From the NCBI RefSeq assembly GCF_025150245.1, contig NZ_CP102279.1, positions 310,001 through 374,000 on the forward strand: a stretch of DNA of 64,000 nt. Reading direction: 5' to 3'. Source of the DNA: Dorea formicigenerans (GTDB lineage: Bacteria; Bacillota; Clostridia; Lachnospirales; Lachnospiraceae). Both the position numbers and the translations under genes were made by a program. A model generated the notes under the pieces. That model made no database searches, was not told where the DNA came from, and saw nothing but the letters and a program-made list of their open reading frames with translations. This document shows, piece after piece, positions 12,855 through 62,591 of this stretch (its first letter is position 1; each line of letters begins with the position of its first letter).

Positions 12855-13211
12855 ATGGATTATATAAAAGCATTTATTATAGGTGGAATCATCTGTGCTC
12901 TGACGCAGATCCTGCTGGATAGGACAAAACTAATGCCAGGGCGTATCATGGTACTTCTAGTGTGCAGCGGGGCAGTTCTTGGAGCGATTGGAATCTATCA
13001 GCCATTCCAGGATTTTGCCGGAGCTGGTGCGAGCGTACCATTGTGTGGGTTTGGGAACCTTCTTTGGAAAGGGGTCCAAGATGCTGTAGATCAGGAAGGA
13101 TTCATCGGAGTGTTCCTGGGAGGATTCAAAGCCAGTGCAGTCGGTATAAGCGCAGCGTTAATATTCGGATATCTCGCATCATTGATATTCAGTCCTAAAA
13201 TGAAAAGATGA
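12855..13211 (+). CDS. spoVAE: Stage V sporulation protein AE
   Basis: A 118-residue integral membrane SpoVA subunit of the spore DPA channel, related to SpoVAC. It shows FIIGGIICALTQILLD at the N-terminus, the GAGASVPLCGFGNLL motif in the middle and a GGFKASAVGISAALIFGYL segment at the end. GAGAGGAG precedes the ATG. Its TGA stop lies within the first bases of the long palindromic element at 13210-13381. Confidence 0.9.
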   Translation: MDYIKAFIIGGIICALTQILLDRTKLMPGRIMVLLVCSGAVLGAIGIYQPFQDFAGAGASVPLCGFGNLLWKGVQDAVDQEGFIGVFLGGFKASAVGISAALIFGYLASLIFSPKMKR

Positions 13212-13381
13212 CTTTTTATATCGCTCAGATTAGACAGGATTTTCTATGCCTGCTGCGTCATATATTACAGTTTTCTCCGCAAACTCGCCAAAAGGCAGGC
13301 TCAGACAGTGCTCCGAAAACTGAATTATACTCGCAGGCATAACGAAAATCCTGTCATTAATCCTCGCGATGTAGAAAGTTC
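13210..13381. repeat. Long imperfect palindrome, family 1, copy A
   Basis: An approximately 172-base nested inverted repeat that begins in the spoVAE stop codon. Stem pairs include GACAGGATTTTC with GAAAATCCTGTC, ATGCC with GGCAT, CAGTTTTC with GAAAACTG, and GCC with GGC around the centre. Loop segments GCTGCGTC, AAACTCGC, GCTCAGACA, TGCTCCG and TATACTCGCA recur in the copies at 61999-62223 and 62338-62539. Confidence 0.75.
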
Positions 13382-13597
13382 AGGCGGAAGTTGTGTGCGG
13401 GGACTTGGTGTGCTCGTTCCTGCGAAAGCCTCACTATAGTCACCAAGAAACTGTATTTTATGAGGCAGAAAGTCTGTTTAATATTTTGAGAGAGTAAGTG
13501 AGTGTTAGCTTATAGAGGAGCATGTCACTGAGATAGGAGAGGGAGAAACAGTATAATATATCTTCCTGACAAATTAAACATGAAACATAAAAATTAA
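13382..13597. other. Gene-free stretch between palindrome A and terminator
   Basis: No ORF with a credible ribosome site was found. CTTGGTG and CACCAAG (about 13404-13447) can pair. The stretch is probably the 3' part of the spoVA transcript or an unrecognised small RNA that ends at the terminator that follows. Confidence 0.4.
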
Positions 13598-13676: not shown

Positions 13677-13780
13677 AGATTTTTCAATTCTTAAGACAAT
13701 TGGAAGATTTTTGCAACACCTGCAAATAGACGACGCAGCAGGTGTAAAAAATCTTTCATGTCTTCAAGAATGAAAAATCT
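13677..13780. repeat. Long palindrome, short family-1-like copy D
   Basis: AGATTTTTCA plus TTCTTAAGACA on the left pair with TGTCTTCAAGAA plus TGAAAAATCT on the right, and an inner ACACCTGC/GCAGGTGT stem closes the centre. The minus strand carries CTGCTGCGTCG, the first conserved loop segment of family 1. The inner part of the element is missing. It ends about 50 bases before the ABC ATPase start. Confidence 0.55.
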
Positions 13781-17859: not shown

Positions 17860-18040
17860 ATGATGTAATCGGATTGCTCCATTGCTATGCAATTACCGCA
17901 ATCCTTGAACACCTCGAACTCCCATAAAATGGTGTATTCACACCATTTTATTTCGTCCTCGGTGTTCAGCGTGTCAAAAAGTATAAATTGCTTATTTGTG
18001 CGAGCACAAACACAATTTATACTTTTGACACTTACATCAT
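17860..18040. repeat. Multi-hairpin palindromic element G
   Basis: An outer pair, ATGATGTAA (17860-17868) with TTACATCAT (18032-18040), encloses three hairpins: GATTGC/GCAATC, GAACACC with GGTGTTC around a perfect ATAAAATGGTGT/ACACCATTTTAT stem, and GTGTCAAAAAGTATAAATTG with its full complement ending TTTTGACAC. The outer right arm is the end of the phosphodiesterase gene, including its stop codon. Confidence 0.6.
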
Positions 18041-29557: not shown

Positions 29558-29655
29558 GGGGGTAGTTGGGTAACTGGTGTGCCTCCTAGTCTTCAAAACT
29601 AGTGTGGGGCGTTAAGAGCGTCCCGGGTGGGTTCGATTCCCACATGCCTCCGCCA
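29558..29655 (+). tRNA. selC: tRNA-Sec (anticodon UCA)
   Basis: A 98-base tRNA with the selenocysteine features: an 8-base acceptor region (GGGGGTAG with ATGCCTCC, last pair imperfect), a CTAGT/ACTAG anticodon stem with loop CTTCAAA carrying anticodon TCA (29593-29595), a long variable arm (GGGGCG...CGTCCC), a GTGGG/CCCAC T-stem and an encoded CCA end. It sits directly after the sel operon and DUF3343 gene, in agreement with the two in-frame UGA codons in selD and fdhF. Confidence 0.95.
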
Positions 29656-30560: not shown

Positions 30561-30640
30561 TTGCAGAGGTGCGCAGTAGAGGTATGCCATGCAATTGCAT
30601 GACGCGCACCTCGCAGCGAGAATGTCTCGGCATTCTTGAA
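30561..30640. repeat. Dispersed two-hairpin repeat R, copy 1
   Basis: GAGGTGCGC and GCGCACCTC form the first hairpin with ATGCAATTGCAT at its centre, and GAATGTCTCGGCATTC forms the second. The reverse complement is roughly 90 percent identical by eye to 60065-60144. Confidence 0.8.
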
Positions 30641-30761: not shown

Positions 30762-31001
30762 GCTGTGACATGATAGCAATGAAGCGCGAGGTTGCCGTCG
30801 AGAATGACGGGTTTTCCGTGGAGCGAATGTCAAGTTAGGAAACTGGCGACAAGTCACTGTACGAATCAAAAACTGATTACTGATTACCATTAGGTATAAG
30901 TATGAAACAACGTGTGAGTTTCTCACGACACACACGGGAGAGTGTACAGTCACCGCTTGTCGTACTGAAGTTAAAAGTACGAAAAGGAGGCGACTTTTTT
31001 T
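30762..31001 (+). promoter_or_regulatory. Structured 5' leader of the S10 operon
   Basis: About 240 untranslated bases. CGACAAG plus CTGTAC near 30847-30860 pair with GTACAG and CTTGTCG near 30945-30961, enclosing a GTGTGAGTTTCTCACGACACAC hairpin region. In Firmicutes the S10 operon leader may bind a ribosomal protein for feedback control. That role is inferred here from position and structure. Confidence 0.55.
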
Positions 31002-44267: not shown

Positions 44268-44513
44268 TTAATTAGGCGGCTGATAGTCAGGACACGCCAG
44301 GCGGTGTGTAGAGACTATTTTAAATATACAAGGAACACCTTTAGCCGGTGATGATTCCTCGTATATTGCTTCTAATGCCGGTCCGTCATTACCGCGCAGC
44401 TTCCATAAAAGATGCGGTGACCGGAAAGGGCATGATACCGAACATGCCTGGGACATGGAGATGTGTCCCCTATTAAAGACGATAACAAACAAAGAAAGTG
44501 GAGGAACAGTCAC
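44268..44513 (+). promoter_or_regulatory. Structured rpmJ-rpsM intercistronic region
   Basis: An unusual 246-base gap inside the alpha operon. Hairpins: ATATAC plus AGGAA with TTCCT plus GTATAT (about 44324-44366), CCGGTCCGTCATT with a GCGGTGACCGG partner (about 44380-44426), and GGGACA with TGTCCC (about 44450-44470). It probably controls rpsM translation, as the alpha-operon pseudoknot does in E. coli. That is inferred from position. Confidence 0.5.
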
Positions 44514-50909: not shown

Positions 50910-52741
50910 AAGTCTCTACCTCCTACCATAGCTCCACATCCGAAGTGGTCACAACGCAGACAGCGGCATGCTTCCTGCATAGCTTCTTCATGTGTTAAGA
51001 GCTCTTCTACATGTTCGAAATCTTTCTTGCGGATATTTGCCGGGCGCTCACCAATCTCTGTACGTCCCATAAGATCACGCATATTTTCTTTTGGTTCCGG
51101 TACAACAGCTTCACAAGTGAGTGTGTGGTGGTAACCAAGATATTCATCAATATTGTGTGCAGCTACTTTTCCGGCAGCGATTGCACGAATTACAGTAGAT
51201 GGACCAGTTGCACAGTCTCCACCGGTGAATACACCAGGGATTTCTTTTACTTCTGTGTCAAGTCCGGCCTGAAGGATATTCCATTTTGCAGGGATACCAA
51301 ACTCTTCAAATGGAGCGGATACAATATCCTGTCCAACTGCGATCATAATAACATCTGCTTTGAATTCCTGTTTTTCTTTTGCAGCATCCTTTGGTGCCGG
51401 TCTGGATCCGCGGTAAGCACTAATCATCTGTGGTTGTGTGATCAGAGATTTACAGTTACCATTTTCATCTTTTGTAATCTCGACCGGAGCCTGCAGTGTT
51501 ACAAGTGCGATTCCTTCCATAACTGCGGATTCGATCTCAGATTCCAGGGCAGTCATGTCTTTCTGACGGCGACGGTAAATGATGGATACTTCTTCTGCGT
51601 TGCATCTGACAGCACTTCTTGCACAGTCCATAGCAACGTTACCACCACCGATAACGACAACACTTTTGCCAGTGTAATCAGGAAGATTTCCATTTCCAAT
51701 CTGATCCAGAATATCTACAGCAGATACAACATTTCCGGCGTCAGCACCTTCAATACGAAGTGTCTTACCTGTCTGAGCACCAATTCCAACAAAAATTGCA
51801 TCATGTTTCTCGTAAATATCTTTGACAGGAATATCTTTTCCGATTGTTGTGTTGTATGTAACATGGATATCACCGCTATTTAAAATCGCACGGATATCTT
51901 CATCCAGACGATCTTTCGGAAAACGGTAATTCGGAATTCCATAACGGAGCATTCCGCCAAGTTTGTCATGTGTTTCATATACTTCAATCTTATGTCCCAT
52001 AAGAGCTAAGAAGTATGCTGCAGTTAGTCCTGCAGGACCACCACCAATGACACCGATGGATTTTCCTGTAGAAGGATTCGGTTTTGGTGTAGCAACTTTG
52101 TCGACTGGCATCATATCAACTGCATATTTTTTCAGTGCACGGATGTTGATCGGTGACTCCAGCATCTTTCTTCTGCAGCGCTCCTCACAAGGATGCTCAC
52201 AGACCATAGCACAGGCTGTCGGGAACGGATTGTCTTTACGGATCAGATTAATTGCTCCGGCGTAATCCTCTTCACCAACTAATGCGATATATCCCGGAAT
52301 ATTTACATGTGCAGGACATAAGGAGATACAAGGTACCTTCTGTCCGATGGATTCCAGACATTTTTTGTTTTCAATGTGGCTCTGATATTCGTCTGCAAAC
52401 AGGTCTAATCCTTTTAAGACCTCATCAGCGGCATTCCAACCGATGGCACAGTCAGCAGATGAACGGATCATCGTAGCCATCATACGGATGTTATCCAAAG
52501 TTTTTTCTGTTGCACGGCCATCTAACACTTTCTGCATCAGACGTGCTACAAGTGGAAGACCGTCGCGGCACGGAACACATTTTCCACAAGTCTGGTTTGC
52601 AGCCGTACGCAACATAGAGATCTGCATAGTGATCGGGCAGCTTCCAGGAGGATAAACCTCAACTTTATGAGAAAAATGTCGTGCGATTTCATTCATTTTC
52701 ACGTCATAACCTGACGGATCAGCAAGATATAATTTGCTCAT
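50906..52741 (-). CDS. NuoF C-terminal/GltD fusion flavoprotein, partner of formate dehydrogenase
   Basis: A 611-residue protein. Residues 1-115 match the C-terminal 4Fe-4S domain of NuoF (CPITMQISMLRTAANQTCGKC, with CGKCVPCR near 52), without the FMN-binding part. From about 130 it is GltD-like: CPAHVNIPGYIALV and CEHPCEERCRR for two 4Fe-4S clusters, FAD site IGGGPAGLTAAYF (about 228), nucleotide site VVIGGGNVAMDCARSA (about 365) and FTGGDCATGPSTVI. It should shuttle electrons between NAD(P)H and the iron-sulfur chain of FdhF. It is paralogous to the gene at 56343. Confidence 0.88.
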   Translation of the reverse strand: MSKLYLADPSGYDVKMNEIARHFSHKVEVYPPGSCPITMQISMLRTAANQTCGKCVPCRDGLPLVARLMQKVLDGRATEKTLDNIRMMATMIRSSADCAIGWNAADEVLKGLDLFADEYQSHIENKKCLESIGQKVPCISLCPAHVNIPGYIALVGEEDYAGAINLIRKDNPFPTACAMVCEHPCEERCRRKMLESPINIRALKKYAVDMMPVDKVATPKPNPSTGKSIGVIGGGPAGLTAAYFLALMGHKIEVYETHDKLGGMLRYGIPNYRFPKDRLDEDIRAILNSGDIHVTYNTTIGKDIPVKDIYEKHDAIFVGIGAQTGKTLRIEGADAGNVVSAVDILDQIGNGNLPDYTGKSVVVIGGGNVAMDCARSAVRCNAEEVSIIYRRRQKDMTALESEIESAVMEGIALVTLQAPVEITKDENGNCKSLITQPQMISAYRGSRPAPKDAAKEKQEFKADVIMIAVGQDIVSAPFEEFGIPAKWNILQAGLDTEVKEIPGVFTGGDCATGPSTVIRAIAAGKVAAHNIDEYLGYHHTLTCEAVVPEPKENMRDLMGRTEIGERPANIRKKDFEHVEELLTHEEAMQEACRCLRCDHFGCGAMVGGRDL

Positions 52742-56342: not shown

Positions 56343-58175
56343 ATGAGTAGATTAACGATCGATACTCCTAGCAGGGCAGACCTTGTTATGGAGCAGCTCT
56401 ACAAGGATCTTGAGCGCAGAATCGAATCAAGCCCACCGGGATTATGTCCAGTAGACTTGTCTCGCGCATTTTTGGAGTTATGCCATGCTCAGACTTGTGG
56501 AAAATGTGTACCTTGCCGTGTCGGTCTTGGTCAGTTGAATCACCTGATCAGAAAGGTACTGAACGGCAACGCAACAATGGAGACACTTGATACTATGGAG
56601 CAGACAGCAAAGTCTATTATGGAGTCTGCCGACTGTGCGATTGGATATGAGGCAGCGCATATGGTATATAAGGGACTGATCGGATATCGCGATGATTATA
56701 TCGAGCATATCAAGAACGGACGCTGTACCTGTACATATAATCAGCCGGTACCATGTGTATCCTTATGTCCTGCACATGTTGATATTCCGGGATATGTAGC
56801 GTTAGTTGGGGAAGGACGCTATGCAGATGCAATCCGTCTGATCCGTAAGGATAATCCATTCCCGACAACATGTGGATTTATCTGTGAGCATCCATGTGAG
56901 GCAAGATGCCGTCGTAACATGATTGATGATTCTATTAATATCCGTGGCCTGAAACGAGTGGCAGCAGACTTTGCAGGGGAAGTAGAGCCGCCAAAATGTG
57001 CACCAGGCACAGGTAAGAAAATTGCTGTATTAGGAGGAGGCCCGGGAGGACTCAGTGCAGCTTATTATCTGCAGCTTATGGGACATCAGACAACGGTATA
57101 TGAGATGCTTCCAAAGCTTGGAGGTATGCTCCGCTATGGTATTCCGAACTACAGACTTCCGAAAGACCGTCTGGACGAGGATATCAATGCAATCTTAAAG
57201 ACAGGAGTAGAAGTAAAATACGGTCTTAAGATCGGTGAAGATATTACAATCCAACAGCTTCGCAGTGAGTACGATGCTGTTCTGATTACAATTGGAGCAA
57301 GTACAGATAAGAAACTTGGACTGGAAGGCGAAGATGCAGACGGAGTCATCTCAGCAGTACAGTTCTTAAGAGATGTAGGAAAAGACGAAGCACTTGACCT
57401 GACTGGAAAAGAAGTCGCAGTTGTCGGTGGTGGTAATGTATCTATGGATGCAGTCCGTACAGCCAAAAGACTGGGTGCTAAGAAAGTCAGCATTGTATAT
57501 AGAAGAAGAGTTGCAGATATGACAGCTCTTCCGGCAGAGATTGAAGGAGCAATTGCAGAGGGAATTGAAGTACAGACTCTGAAGGCCCCGGCATCTCTGG
57601 ATATTGATGAAAATCATCACATTAAAGGAATGTATGTTACACCGCAGATGATCAGTGAGATCAAAGGCGGACGTGCAAGCGTAAAAGCAACAGGAGAGCC
57701 AGATCAGTATATTCCATGTGATATCCTTGTTGTGGCAATTGGTCAGAATATTGAGACAGATCATTTCGCAGAAGCAGGAATTCCGGTAGAGCGTGGTAAG
57801 ATCGTGACAACTGCAGGAGGAGATTTCCTGGATATGCCAGGTGTATTTGCAGGAGGAGACTGTGCAAGTGGTCCGGCTACTGTGATCAAAGCGATTGCAG
57901 CAGCAAAAGTTGTAGCTGCCAACATTGATGAATATCTTGGATATCATCATGAGATTTCCTGTGATGTAGAGATTCCGAAAGCAAGCCTTCATGACAGAGT
58001 ACCTTGCGGACGTGCAGAACTTACAGAGCGCGAGGCATGTGAGAGAGTCTGTGATTTTGAAGGAGTGGAGAACTGCATGACCGAAAAAGAAGCAAAACAG
58101 GAAGCTTGCCGCTGTCTGCGCTGCGATCATTTCGGATATGGAATATTTAAAGGAGGCAGAGAAAAATTATGGTAA
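56343..58175 (+). CDS. NuoF C-terminal/GltD fusion flavoprotein, partner of [FeFe] hydrogenase
   Basis: A 610-residue paralog of the protein at 50906-52741. Residues 1-120 have the NuoF-tail 4Fe-4S motif CGKCVPCRVG. Then the GltD part: CPAHVDIPGYVALV, CEHPCEARCRR, FAD site LGGGPGGLSAAYY, second Rossmann VVGGGNVSMDAVRTA, and FAGGDCASGPATVI. The C-terminal CRCLRCDHFG is shared with the paralog. Its stop overlaps the hydA start. HydDB group A2 [FeFe] hydrogenases are known to be associated with glutamate-synthase-like partners. Electron transfer between NAD(P)H and the hydrogenase is the likely role. Confidence 0.88.
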   Translation: MSRLTIDTPSRADLVMEQLYKDLERRIESSPPGLCPVDLSRAFLELCHAQTCGKCVPCRVGLGQLNHLIRKVLNGNATMETLDTMEQTAKSIMESADCAIGYEAAHMVYKGLIGYRDDYIEHIKNGRCTCTYNQPVPCVSLCPAHVDIPGYVALVGEGRYADAIRLIRKDNPFPTTCGFICEHPCEARCRRNMIDDSINIRGLKRVAADFAGEVEPPKCAPGTGKKIAVLGGGPGGLSAAYYLQLMGHQTTVYEMLPKLGGMLRYGIPNYRLPKDRLDEDINAILKTGVEVKYGLKIGEDITIQQLRSEYDAVLITIGASTDKKLGLEGEDADGVISAVQFLRDVGKDEALDLTGKEVAVVGGGNVSMDAVRTAKRLGAKKVSIVYRRRVADMTALPAEIEGAIAEGIEVQTLKAPASLDIDENHHIKGMYVTPQMISEIKGGRASVKATGEPDQYIPCDILVVAIGQNIETDHFAEAGIPVERGKIVTTAGGDFLDMPGVFAGGDCASGPATVIKAIAAAKVVAANIDEYLGYHHEISCDVEIPKASLHDRVPCGRAELTEREACERVCDFEGVENCMTEKEAKQEACRCLRCDHFGYGIFKGGREKLW

Positions 58176-60064: not shown

Positions 60065-60144
60065 TTCAAGAATGCCTCGGCATTCTTGCTGCGAGGTGCG
60101 CGTAATGCAATTGCATGACATACTTCTACTGCGCACCTCCGCAA
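60065..60144. repeat. Dispersed two-hairpin repeat R, copy 2 (inverted)
   Basis: GAATGCCTCGGCATTC hairpin, then GAGGTGCGC/GCGCACCTC enclosing ATGCAATTGCAT. Inverse orientation to 30561-30640, with about eight differences in 80 bases by eye. Confidence 0.8.
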
Positions 60145-60968: not shown

Positions 60969-61994
60969 ATGAAGAAAAAAGCATTTGATCTGCTGACATT
61001 AGGAGAGATTCTGCTTCGTCTGTCCCCACCGGACAATGAGCGTATCGTACGTGGAGAGACATTTCAGAAGCAGGTTGGCGGCGCAGAACTTAACGTAGCT
61101 TCCGGCGTATCTCTTCTTGGTCTGAGATCCGGTATCATATCAAGAATTCCAGACAGTAGTATCGGTATGTTCGCAAAGAATAAGATCCGATTCTGTGGAG
61201 TCAGTGATGATTATCTGGTATACGATACAGGAAAAGATGCAAGATTGGGCGTGTATTACTACGAGAACGGAGCATACCCGAGAAAACCGGGCGTGGTCTA
61301 TGACAGACAGCATTCGTCCATGACCAGAATTGACATCGATGAATTTGATGACAGTATATATGAATCGACCAGATGCTTTCATACCTCCGGAATTACTCTG
61401 GCGCTCAGTGAAGAGTGTCGGAAGACCGGAGTAGAGATGATTAAGAGATTTAAGGAAAAAGGCGCACTCATTTCATTTGACGTGAACTTCCGCCTGAATC
61501 TCTGGTCAGGAGAAGAAGCAAGAAAATGTATTGAAGGAATCCTTCCTTATGTAGACATTTTCTTTTGCTCCGAAGACACTGCAAGACTGACATTTGGAAA
61601 AGAAGGCAATGTAAAAGAGATCATGGAAAGCTTTGCAGCTGAATATCCAATCTCCATCATCGCATCCACCCAGCGTACTGTATTAAGTCCAAAGATACAT
61701 AACTTTACTTCTGTAATTTACGACGCAAAAGCGAAGAAATTCTATGAAGAGAAACCATACGAGAATATCGAAGTTGTAGATCGTATCGGAAGCGGAGATG
61801 CTTATTGTTCCGGAGTGCTGTATGGACTTTTGAGAGAAGACGGAGGGTGTGCAAGTGCTCTTCGCTATGGAAATGCCAGCAGTGCAGCCAAGAATACTAT
61901 CCCAGGTGATATGCCATCATTGGATCGTGAGGAGATAGAGAATATTATCCATGATCACGAGACAGTCGGATATCATAGTGAGATGAATTGGTAA
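60969..61994 (+). CDS. kdgK: 2-keto-3-deoxygluconate kinase (PfkB family)
   Basis: A 341-residue sugar kinase that makes KDPG for the preceding aldolase. PfkB signatures: FDLLTLGEILLRLSPP and GGAELNVASGVSLLGLRSG at the N-terminus, and the catalytic-base motif VDRIGSGDAYCSGVLYGLL (about 272) where Asp acts as base. It lies four bases after kdgA, forming a two-gene operon for ketodeoxygluconate use. Confidence 0.92.
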   Translation: MKKKAFDLLTLGEILLRLSPPDNERIVRGETFQKQVGGAELNVASGVSLLGLRSGIISRIPDSSIGMFAKNKIRFCGVSDDYLVYDTGKDARLGVYYYENGAYPRKPGVVYDRQHSSMTRIDIDEFDDSIYESTRCFHTSGITLALSEECRKTGVEMIKRFKEKGALISFDVNFRLNLWSGEEARKCIEGILPYVDIFFCSEDTARLTFGKEGNVKEIMESFAAEYPISIIASTQRTVLSPKIHNFTSVIYDAKAKKFYEEKPYENIEVVDRIGSGDAYCSGVLYGLLREDGGCASALRYGNASSAAKNTIPGDMPSLDREEIENIIHDHETVGYHSEMNW

Positions 61995-61998
61995 ATTG

Positions 61999-62223
61999 AA
62001 TATATTGTGAAGTAAATATATGAACCCCGCCTGAGGTTTCAGAGCAGGTGAGATATTTTCTATAGTTGCTGCGTCGCTGATATCTTACTCTCGACGGAAA
62101 CTCGCTTAAAGAACAAGCTCAAACAATCCGTCGAGAGCAAGGCTATACTCGCAACTATGACGAAAATATCCCAATCCTGGCCTGGAAATCCTCAGGCGTT
62201 TTTGGTTTACTTTACAATATATT
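61999..62223. repeat. Long imperfect palindrome, family 1, copy B
   Basis: Nested arms across 225 bases, starting five bases after the kdgK stop: AATATATTGTGAAGTAAA with its near-perfect complement at 62206-62223, GCCTGAGG/CCTCAGGC, GATATTTTC/GAAAATATC, AGTTGC/GCAACT, CTCTCGACGG/CCGTCGAGAG and GCTT/AAGC at the centre. Loop segments GCTGCGTCGC, AAACTCGC, GCTCAAACA and CTATACTCGCA match copy A. Confidence 0.8.
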
Positions 62224-62337
62224 GAAGAAGAGGAAGTAAAGGATCTCCATGTTACAGTTTTCTACTTAGCCTAAATGATAACCTTCCAGCGTAAGCCGTC
62301 CTGCTTCCAAGAAGTTTATTTTTTACATACTGAGTGG
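62224..62337. other. Short gene-free stretch between two palindromes
   Basis: No ORF, promoter or repeat was recognised. Confidence 0.4.
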
Positions 62338-62539
62338 GAGAAATAGAACTGAAAAACAGGCGGTGCGCATAGAAACATTGAATTATTTTGTAGTTGATGC
62401 GAGCATAGCTTGAACTTTCGGAGCATTGTCTGAGCCTGTTCATCAGGCGAGTTTGCGTAGAAAGTTCAAAATAAGCGACGCAGCATCAACAAAAAATATT
62501 CAGTTTCTGTGCGCACTGCCTGTTTCAATTCTATTTATC
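62338..62539. repeat. Long imperfect palindrome, family 1, copy C (inverted)
   Basis: Ends AATAGAA/TTCTATT, then CAGGC/GCCTG, GTGCGCA/TGCGCAC, AGAAAC/GTTTCT, GTTGATGC/GCATCAAC, TTGAACTTTC/GAAAGTTCAA and a GCCTG/CAGGC centre. Read on the minus strand, its loops are GCTGCGTCGC, AAACTCGC, GCTCAGACA, TGCTCCG and CTATGCTCGCA. Confidence 0.8.
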
Positions 62540-62591
62540 ACAGAATATGATAAAAAATAAACAATAATGTTAAAAAAATATCATTTATATA

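Follow-up and report, generated by a model that had tools for sequence, protein, structure and literature searches.

A widespread family of bacterial hairpin elements, probably mobile, whose stems may be kept matched by copying between DNA arms

Introduction

The REPs are palindromes of 20-50 nt with a conserved tetranucleotide in front of them (PMC8266576). Template switching between the arms of inverted repeats has been proposed as an origin of the compensatory changes found in RNA stems (PMC8794818), and has also been linked to the homogenisation of such arms in yeast (PMC8604942).

The family of palindromes described here was found in a window of 64,000 nucleotides, which covers positions 310001-374000 of a single-contig genome of 3.19 Mb from the Lachnospiraceae. 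As in the REP/BIME (REPIN) systems, the palindromes are mostly intergenic, with a bulged stem, and two copies often lie in inverse orientation, but they measure 170-350 bp, are not accompanied by a fixed tetranucleotide (the adjacent positions are variable), and do not co-occur with RAYT genes. Quasipalindrome correction, that is, homogenisation by template switching, provides a parallel for the rewriting of one arm from the other and for multi-base compensatory change (PMC8794818, PMC8604942), although the reported cases are short inverted repeats or single hairpins, whereas the present family has many long copies, is apparently mobile, and retains fixed mismatches.

The MITEs and foldback elements are similarly non-coding, multi-copy, and patchily distributed, with inverted ends, a palindromic structure over almost the whole length, and target duplications, which were seen here in a relative, genome G257. 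Unlike these elements, the family is conserved between genomes on the inside and not at its ends, its structured tip recurs across phyla, and its arms appear to be rewritten copy by copy. A parent transposon was also not found, as the end patterns sought in genomes G257 and G424 recovered non-coding copies only, although collapsed repeats at the ends of contigs could hide one. The conserved loops and covarying stems are reminiscent of the structured RNA families of Rfam. The initial annotation of this DNA had recognized no family of this type with these loops and, in agreement with this, a search of Rfam 15 at gathering and relaxed thresholds returned no family match, and only two below-threshold matches to microRNA hairpins. 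No description of the family was found in the open-access literature, and it is apparently undescribed.

Location and anatomy of the elements

The copies found in the window are as follows:

13210..13384, plus strand: copy A, hairpin element whose model core spans 13238-13352 and whose conserved tip lies at 13281-13307
13704..13753, minus strand: copy D, remnant that has lost the inner hairpin through internal deletion and is convergent with A (scoring 23.3 bits, with E 0.0017 in a search of the window)
61997..62225, plus strand: copy B, hairpin element whose model core spans 62054-62170 and whose conserved tip lies at 62098-62125
62321..62553, minus strand: copy C, hairpin element, convergent partner of B (model core 62381-62498; conserved tip 62427-62454)

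Copy A lies right behind the stop codon of a gene that ends at 13211, and copy B right behind a stop codon at 61994. The hairpins of copies A, B, and C, which are approximately 170-235 nt in length, fold far beyond the level of shuffled sequence (z = -7.9, -12.6, and -9.5 for A, C, and B, respectively), with none of the 200 shuffles reaching an equal value. The initial annotation had placed these three palindromes correctly, had quoted stems that are indeed present in the sequence, and had treated them as a single family in which the loops are conserved and the stems covary, which the present analysis supports, although the limits it gave were too narrow, with the hairpins extending over approximately 61997-62225 (B) and 62321-62553 (C). 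Its description of the unpaired segments as nearly constant holds for a conserved core, but not for the motif TGCTCCG, which is found in A and C and is absent from B, nor for copy A, which carries GCTGCGTCAT where GCTGCGTCGC had been claimed. Copy D, which was missing from that annotation, was found by the covariance model. As D faces A in the same way that C faces B, every copy in the window belongs to a convergent pair.

The element is a DNA palindrome of 170-350 bp, which forms a long hairpin in which stems specific to each copy surround a conserved core. The conserved tip has the form AAACTCGC-n-GCTCARACA, within which a short stem closes a variable loop. The next part outward from the tip is an inner stem of approximately 14 bp, which differs in every copy, and beyond this lies an asymmetric internal loop, whose left side has TGCG(C/T)CGC-TTAT and whose right side has TATGCTCGC, and which also contains pairs that covary. 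The region of this internal loop is conserved in the Lachnospiraceae, in addition to the tip. Outside the internal loop there are approximately 8 bp, followed by a 2-nt bulge in the right arm (usually AC), and then by an outer stem that no two copies share. In Diplocloster agilis, the arms are mostly 110-190 nt long, with a weaker conserved strip of approximately 35 nt on the right. The left outer arms of the D. agilis copies (L045-L104) are strongly purine- and G-rich, despite differing otherwise, and short segments recur among different copies.

Distribution of the family

A pattern based on the loops alone, AACTCGC-n-GCTCARACA, was found at 11 places in the genome, in comparison with none for the reversed control, and a covariance model derived from the 11 copies returned 16 matches in the genome, including A, B, C, and D, with the genome-wide copy counts resting on the output of the searches. 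Among the Lachnospiraceae, 62 of the 396 genomes carry the family (threshold E 1e-4, no more than nine candidates being scored per genome). In the Bacillota as a whole, the family was found in 24 of 398 genomes (reversed control: 0), while model searches of the sister species D. agilis ASD5720 and D. modestus ASD4241 recovered 86 and at least 73 copies, respectively.

A stricter pattern of approximately 24 bases matched 107 stretches in the species collection, in genomes that include some labelled as Cyanobacteria, Nitrospira, Burkholderiales, Bacteroidia, Desulfobacteraceae, and candidate phyla, although individual taxon assignments may be wrong, given that some of these genomes are metagenome bins. 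Most of the matches inspected are long hairpins that are conserved at the tip only. The distribution of the family is thus patchy and widespread.

Carriage by phages or plasmids was rejected, since a Diplocloster copy used as the query found no match in the phage and plasmid collections, and 2.9 million viral contigs yielded only one and six matches (none in a reversed-type control). The sole match to the strict pattern in the viral collection is a near-copy of copy A in an IMG/VR contig of 11202 bp (L357), located at the extreme end of the contig, as though the palindrome had broken the assembly, and this contig is probably bacterial sequence from a related strain.

Other features of the window

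The Rfam search of the window identified four further RNA features:

17861-18039, minus strand: Clostridiales-1 RNA
29558-29651: selenocysteine tRNA
30771-30852: S10 leader
44424-44477: S4 leader

A second repeat of approximately 80 bp, containing AATGCCTCGGCATT, is found at positions 60065-60144, 30561-30640, and 1175-1205 of the window, with 90% complementarity between the first two places, and 27-31 nt shared with the third. It is possibly another interspersed repeat family. A long inverted similarity of 70-74%, rising to 90% in islands, also links positions 50913-52342 and 56742-58162, which suggests two related genes in opposite orientation, with that on the plus strand being the 610-aa gene at 56343-58175.

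Covariation and mirrored changes

In a hand-made structure of 11 copies, 32 of the 37 pairs were changed on both sides. The covariation score of these copies was 0.654, in comparison with 0.199 in shuffled and no more than 0.143 in slid alignments, while a 46-row alignment scored 0.863, against 0.202 when shuffled, so that covariation lies above the controls in both cases. These paired changes occur nearly without one-sided (G-U) intermediates.

In a stem selected as RNA, transitions that produce a G-U pair should be tolerated more readily than those that produce A-C. Across 109 copies of the two Diplocloster species, the outer stems contain 50 G-U and 48 A-C mismatches, together with 6386 Watson-Crick pairs. 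Among the core pairs in the alignment of 46 rows, there are 30 G-U versus 37 A-C mismatches, and neither count departs from equality. Given the scarcity of G-U intermediates and the equal frequency of the two mismatches, paired change is no safe proof of RNA selection.

The comparison of D. agilis with D. modestus provides a view of how the stems change, as loci with matching flanks contain the same element with different stems. At one of these loci (L046/L157), the left arm has gained approximately 35 bp, which recur as the reverse complement at the mirrored site in the right arm, while a second (L059/L123) has a mirrored insertion of approximately 13-16 bp in both arms. When the four arms were aligned in 11 orthologous pairs confirmed by their flanks, 140 mirrored substitutions were counted versus 74 in a single arm, with only about nine mirrored substitutions being expected if the arms were independent. 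The indel columns of the same pair alignments were even more strongly mirrored (117 versus 15 single).

As both Diplocloster assemblies are drafts, in which the assembler could make the arms look falsely alike, the closed genomes G000, G417, and G295 were also checked, and the overall trend was the same. The copies in G000 have 936 mirrored and 951 single changes, with the mirrored count lying far beyond the approximately 184 expected by the same formula, while G417 has 11 mirrored versus two single changes, and the less clear case is G295, in which the single changes are slightly ahead (eight mirrored versus 12 single). In another genus, the mirrored pattern was visible in one hairpin of a pair, and was not dominant.

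Mirrored changes, which include multi-base insertions, indicate that one DNA arm templates the other. Mismatches common to both Diplocloster species remain, however, in 78 columns over all 14 pairs compared, so that the copying between the arms does not erase everything, and this suggests that selection acts on the shared mismatches, or “bumps”. The conserved loops, the bulges, and the fixed mismatches still require selection, which could act on either the DNA or the RNA. The initial annotation had taken the paired changes to indicate selection on structure, a conclusion that is undercut by the parity of the G-U and A-C mismatches and by the mirrored changes of the arms. Covariation by itself does not show RNA selection.

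Evidence of mobility

Two elements of genome G257 that lie at unrelated loci (L192 and L193) share 99.6% identity over 239 nt. The elements of this genome are 246 bp long, with terminal inverted repeats and ends of the form CA(G/C)GACAAACGCATGAAT, and two of them are flanked by direct repeats of 9 and 10 bp (target duplications). The same genome contains mini-elements of 59-111 bp (L210-L229), which have the terminal repeats of the 246-bp element without its conserved tip. In genome G424, composites of approximately 700 bp are bounded by another pair of inverted ends, which enclose two hairpins in convergent orientation, and the terminal repeats vary from genome to genome.

There is no excess of direct repeats beside the copies of G000 or Diplocloster, and a search for clean empty sites between the Diplocloster sister species, in the one region tried, recovered rearranged junctions only. 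Mobility is thus shown directly in one relative (G257) only and, for the window, is inferred from the patchy distribution. The arrangement of neighboring copies was counted by hand from the match lists of the genome, Diplocloster, the Lachnospiraceae, the Bacillota, and the species collection, and 23 of the 25 pairs less than 2 kb apart are convergent (p ~2e-12 against one quarter), which indicates that the pair is probably a mobile unit, either now or formerly. The initial annotation had proposed either a new structured RNA or a mobile palindrome, and the second of these guesses proved the better one, given the mobility seen in G257 and the unsafe inference of RNA selection.

No recurrent family of protein genes was found near the copies that might travel with the element, and no transposase or recombinase was linked to them. 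Long palindromes are expected to be cut in genomes with SbcD, and this protein is present in G000, in D. agilis and D. modestus, and in most of the carriers. The loss of the hairpin nuclease SbcCD was thus rejected as an explanation of the tolerance of these long palindromes.

Origin of the elements and alternative explanations

On balance, we favor the interpretation of the family as widespread mobile hairpin DNA elements, with stems that are matched by copying from arm to arm, of which copies A-D would be old, non-autonomous members (MITE-like or foldback-like). The conserved parts are probably a recognition site for a recombinase or transposase acting on the extruded hairpin DNA. When one arm mutates, either the opposite arm would be overwritten from it, or the mutation would be erased, through template switching during replication or repair inside the extruded hairpin. 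The repair of mismatches or loops within the hairpin would leave the same pattern as template switching. The mirrored changes point directly to such copying, under which the sequence of the stem would be free to change and each copy would end with a private stem that still pairs, resembling compensatory RNA evolution. A bolder and rather doubtful extension is that the tip marks an unknown recombination system of many phyla, which would read the loop and bulges of the hairpin alone, and rebuild the arms by copying during or after movement, leaving the sequence of the stem unconnected with its function.

An unlikely, though coherent, alternative is a SINE-like mobile element with a functional hairpin RNA, in which the copying of the DNA arms maintains the stem, while the tip and the internal loop would function once transcribed, perhaps as a protein-binding site or as a substrate for reverse transcription. 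The mismatches and loops that outlast the arm copying imply that something selects them, and all the evidence of mobility applies equally to this reading, but the target duplications and inverted ends in G257 fit an ordinary cut-and-paste DNA transposition.

It is slightly harder to accept that the copies belong to a new structured non-coding RNA family, as RNA genes or 3' UTR elements whose pairing is kept by selection. The strand-specific conservation of the loops and bulges and the very strong covariation would be expected of such a family, nine of the 11 copies in G000 follow a gene in the same orientation, and the outer stems of G000 alone have 12 G-U versus three A-C mismatches, a small sample that leaves an RNA role open for that genome. 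These points are countered by the parity of the two mismatches in the large samples, by the mirrored multi-base insertions, and by outer stems of at least 60 pairs, 98% of them paired, in which single pairs could hardly be selected. The orientation of the Diplocloster copies to the genes is also mixed, which led to the rejection of a role as terminators after genes.

An outsized REP/BIME system moved by the REP-associated tyrosine (Y1) transposase is very improbable: the convergent pairing, the mostly intergenic position, the bulged hairpins, a GTAG/GCAG-like tag that adjoins a D. agilis hairpin on the opposite strand, and the Y1 genes of G000 (two) and of each Diplocloster species (one), all below the curated family cut-off, are outweighed by the much smaller size of REPs and their conserved tetranucleotide, by the chance level of co-occurrence of the RAYT gene and the element (both in 13 of the 396 family genomes, 11.6 expected, Fisher p 0.60), and by the lack of a Y1 protein in the element-bearing genomes G295 and G122, and this transposase was rejected as a general mobilizer.

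Implications

The mobile hairpin interpretation would make the family a natural counter-example to the equation of covariation with RNA selection, given that its high-scoring helices are apparently built mostly by the copying of DNA arms. Searches for structured RNAs could check the balance of G-U and A-C mismatches and the presence of mirrored indels. The family also offers numerous palindromes of 200-350 bp as replicates, in genomes with an SbcD gene, so that both the tolerance of such sequences and the homogenisation of their arms become measurable. A structured tip that is conserved from phylum to phylum, and for which no enzyme is known, points towards a mobilizing system that has yet to be identified.
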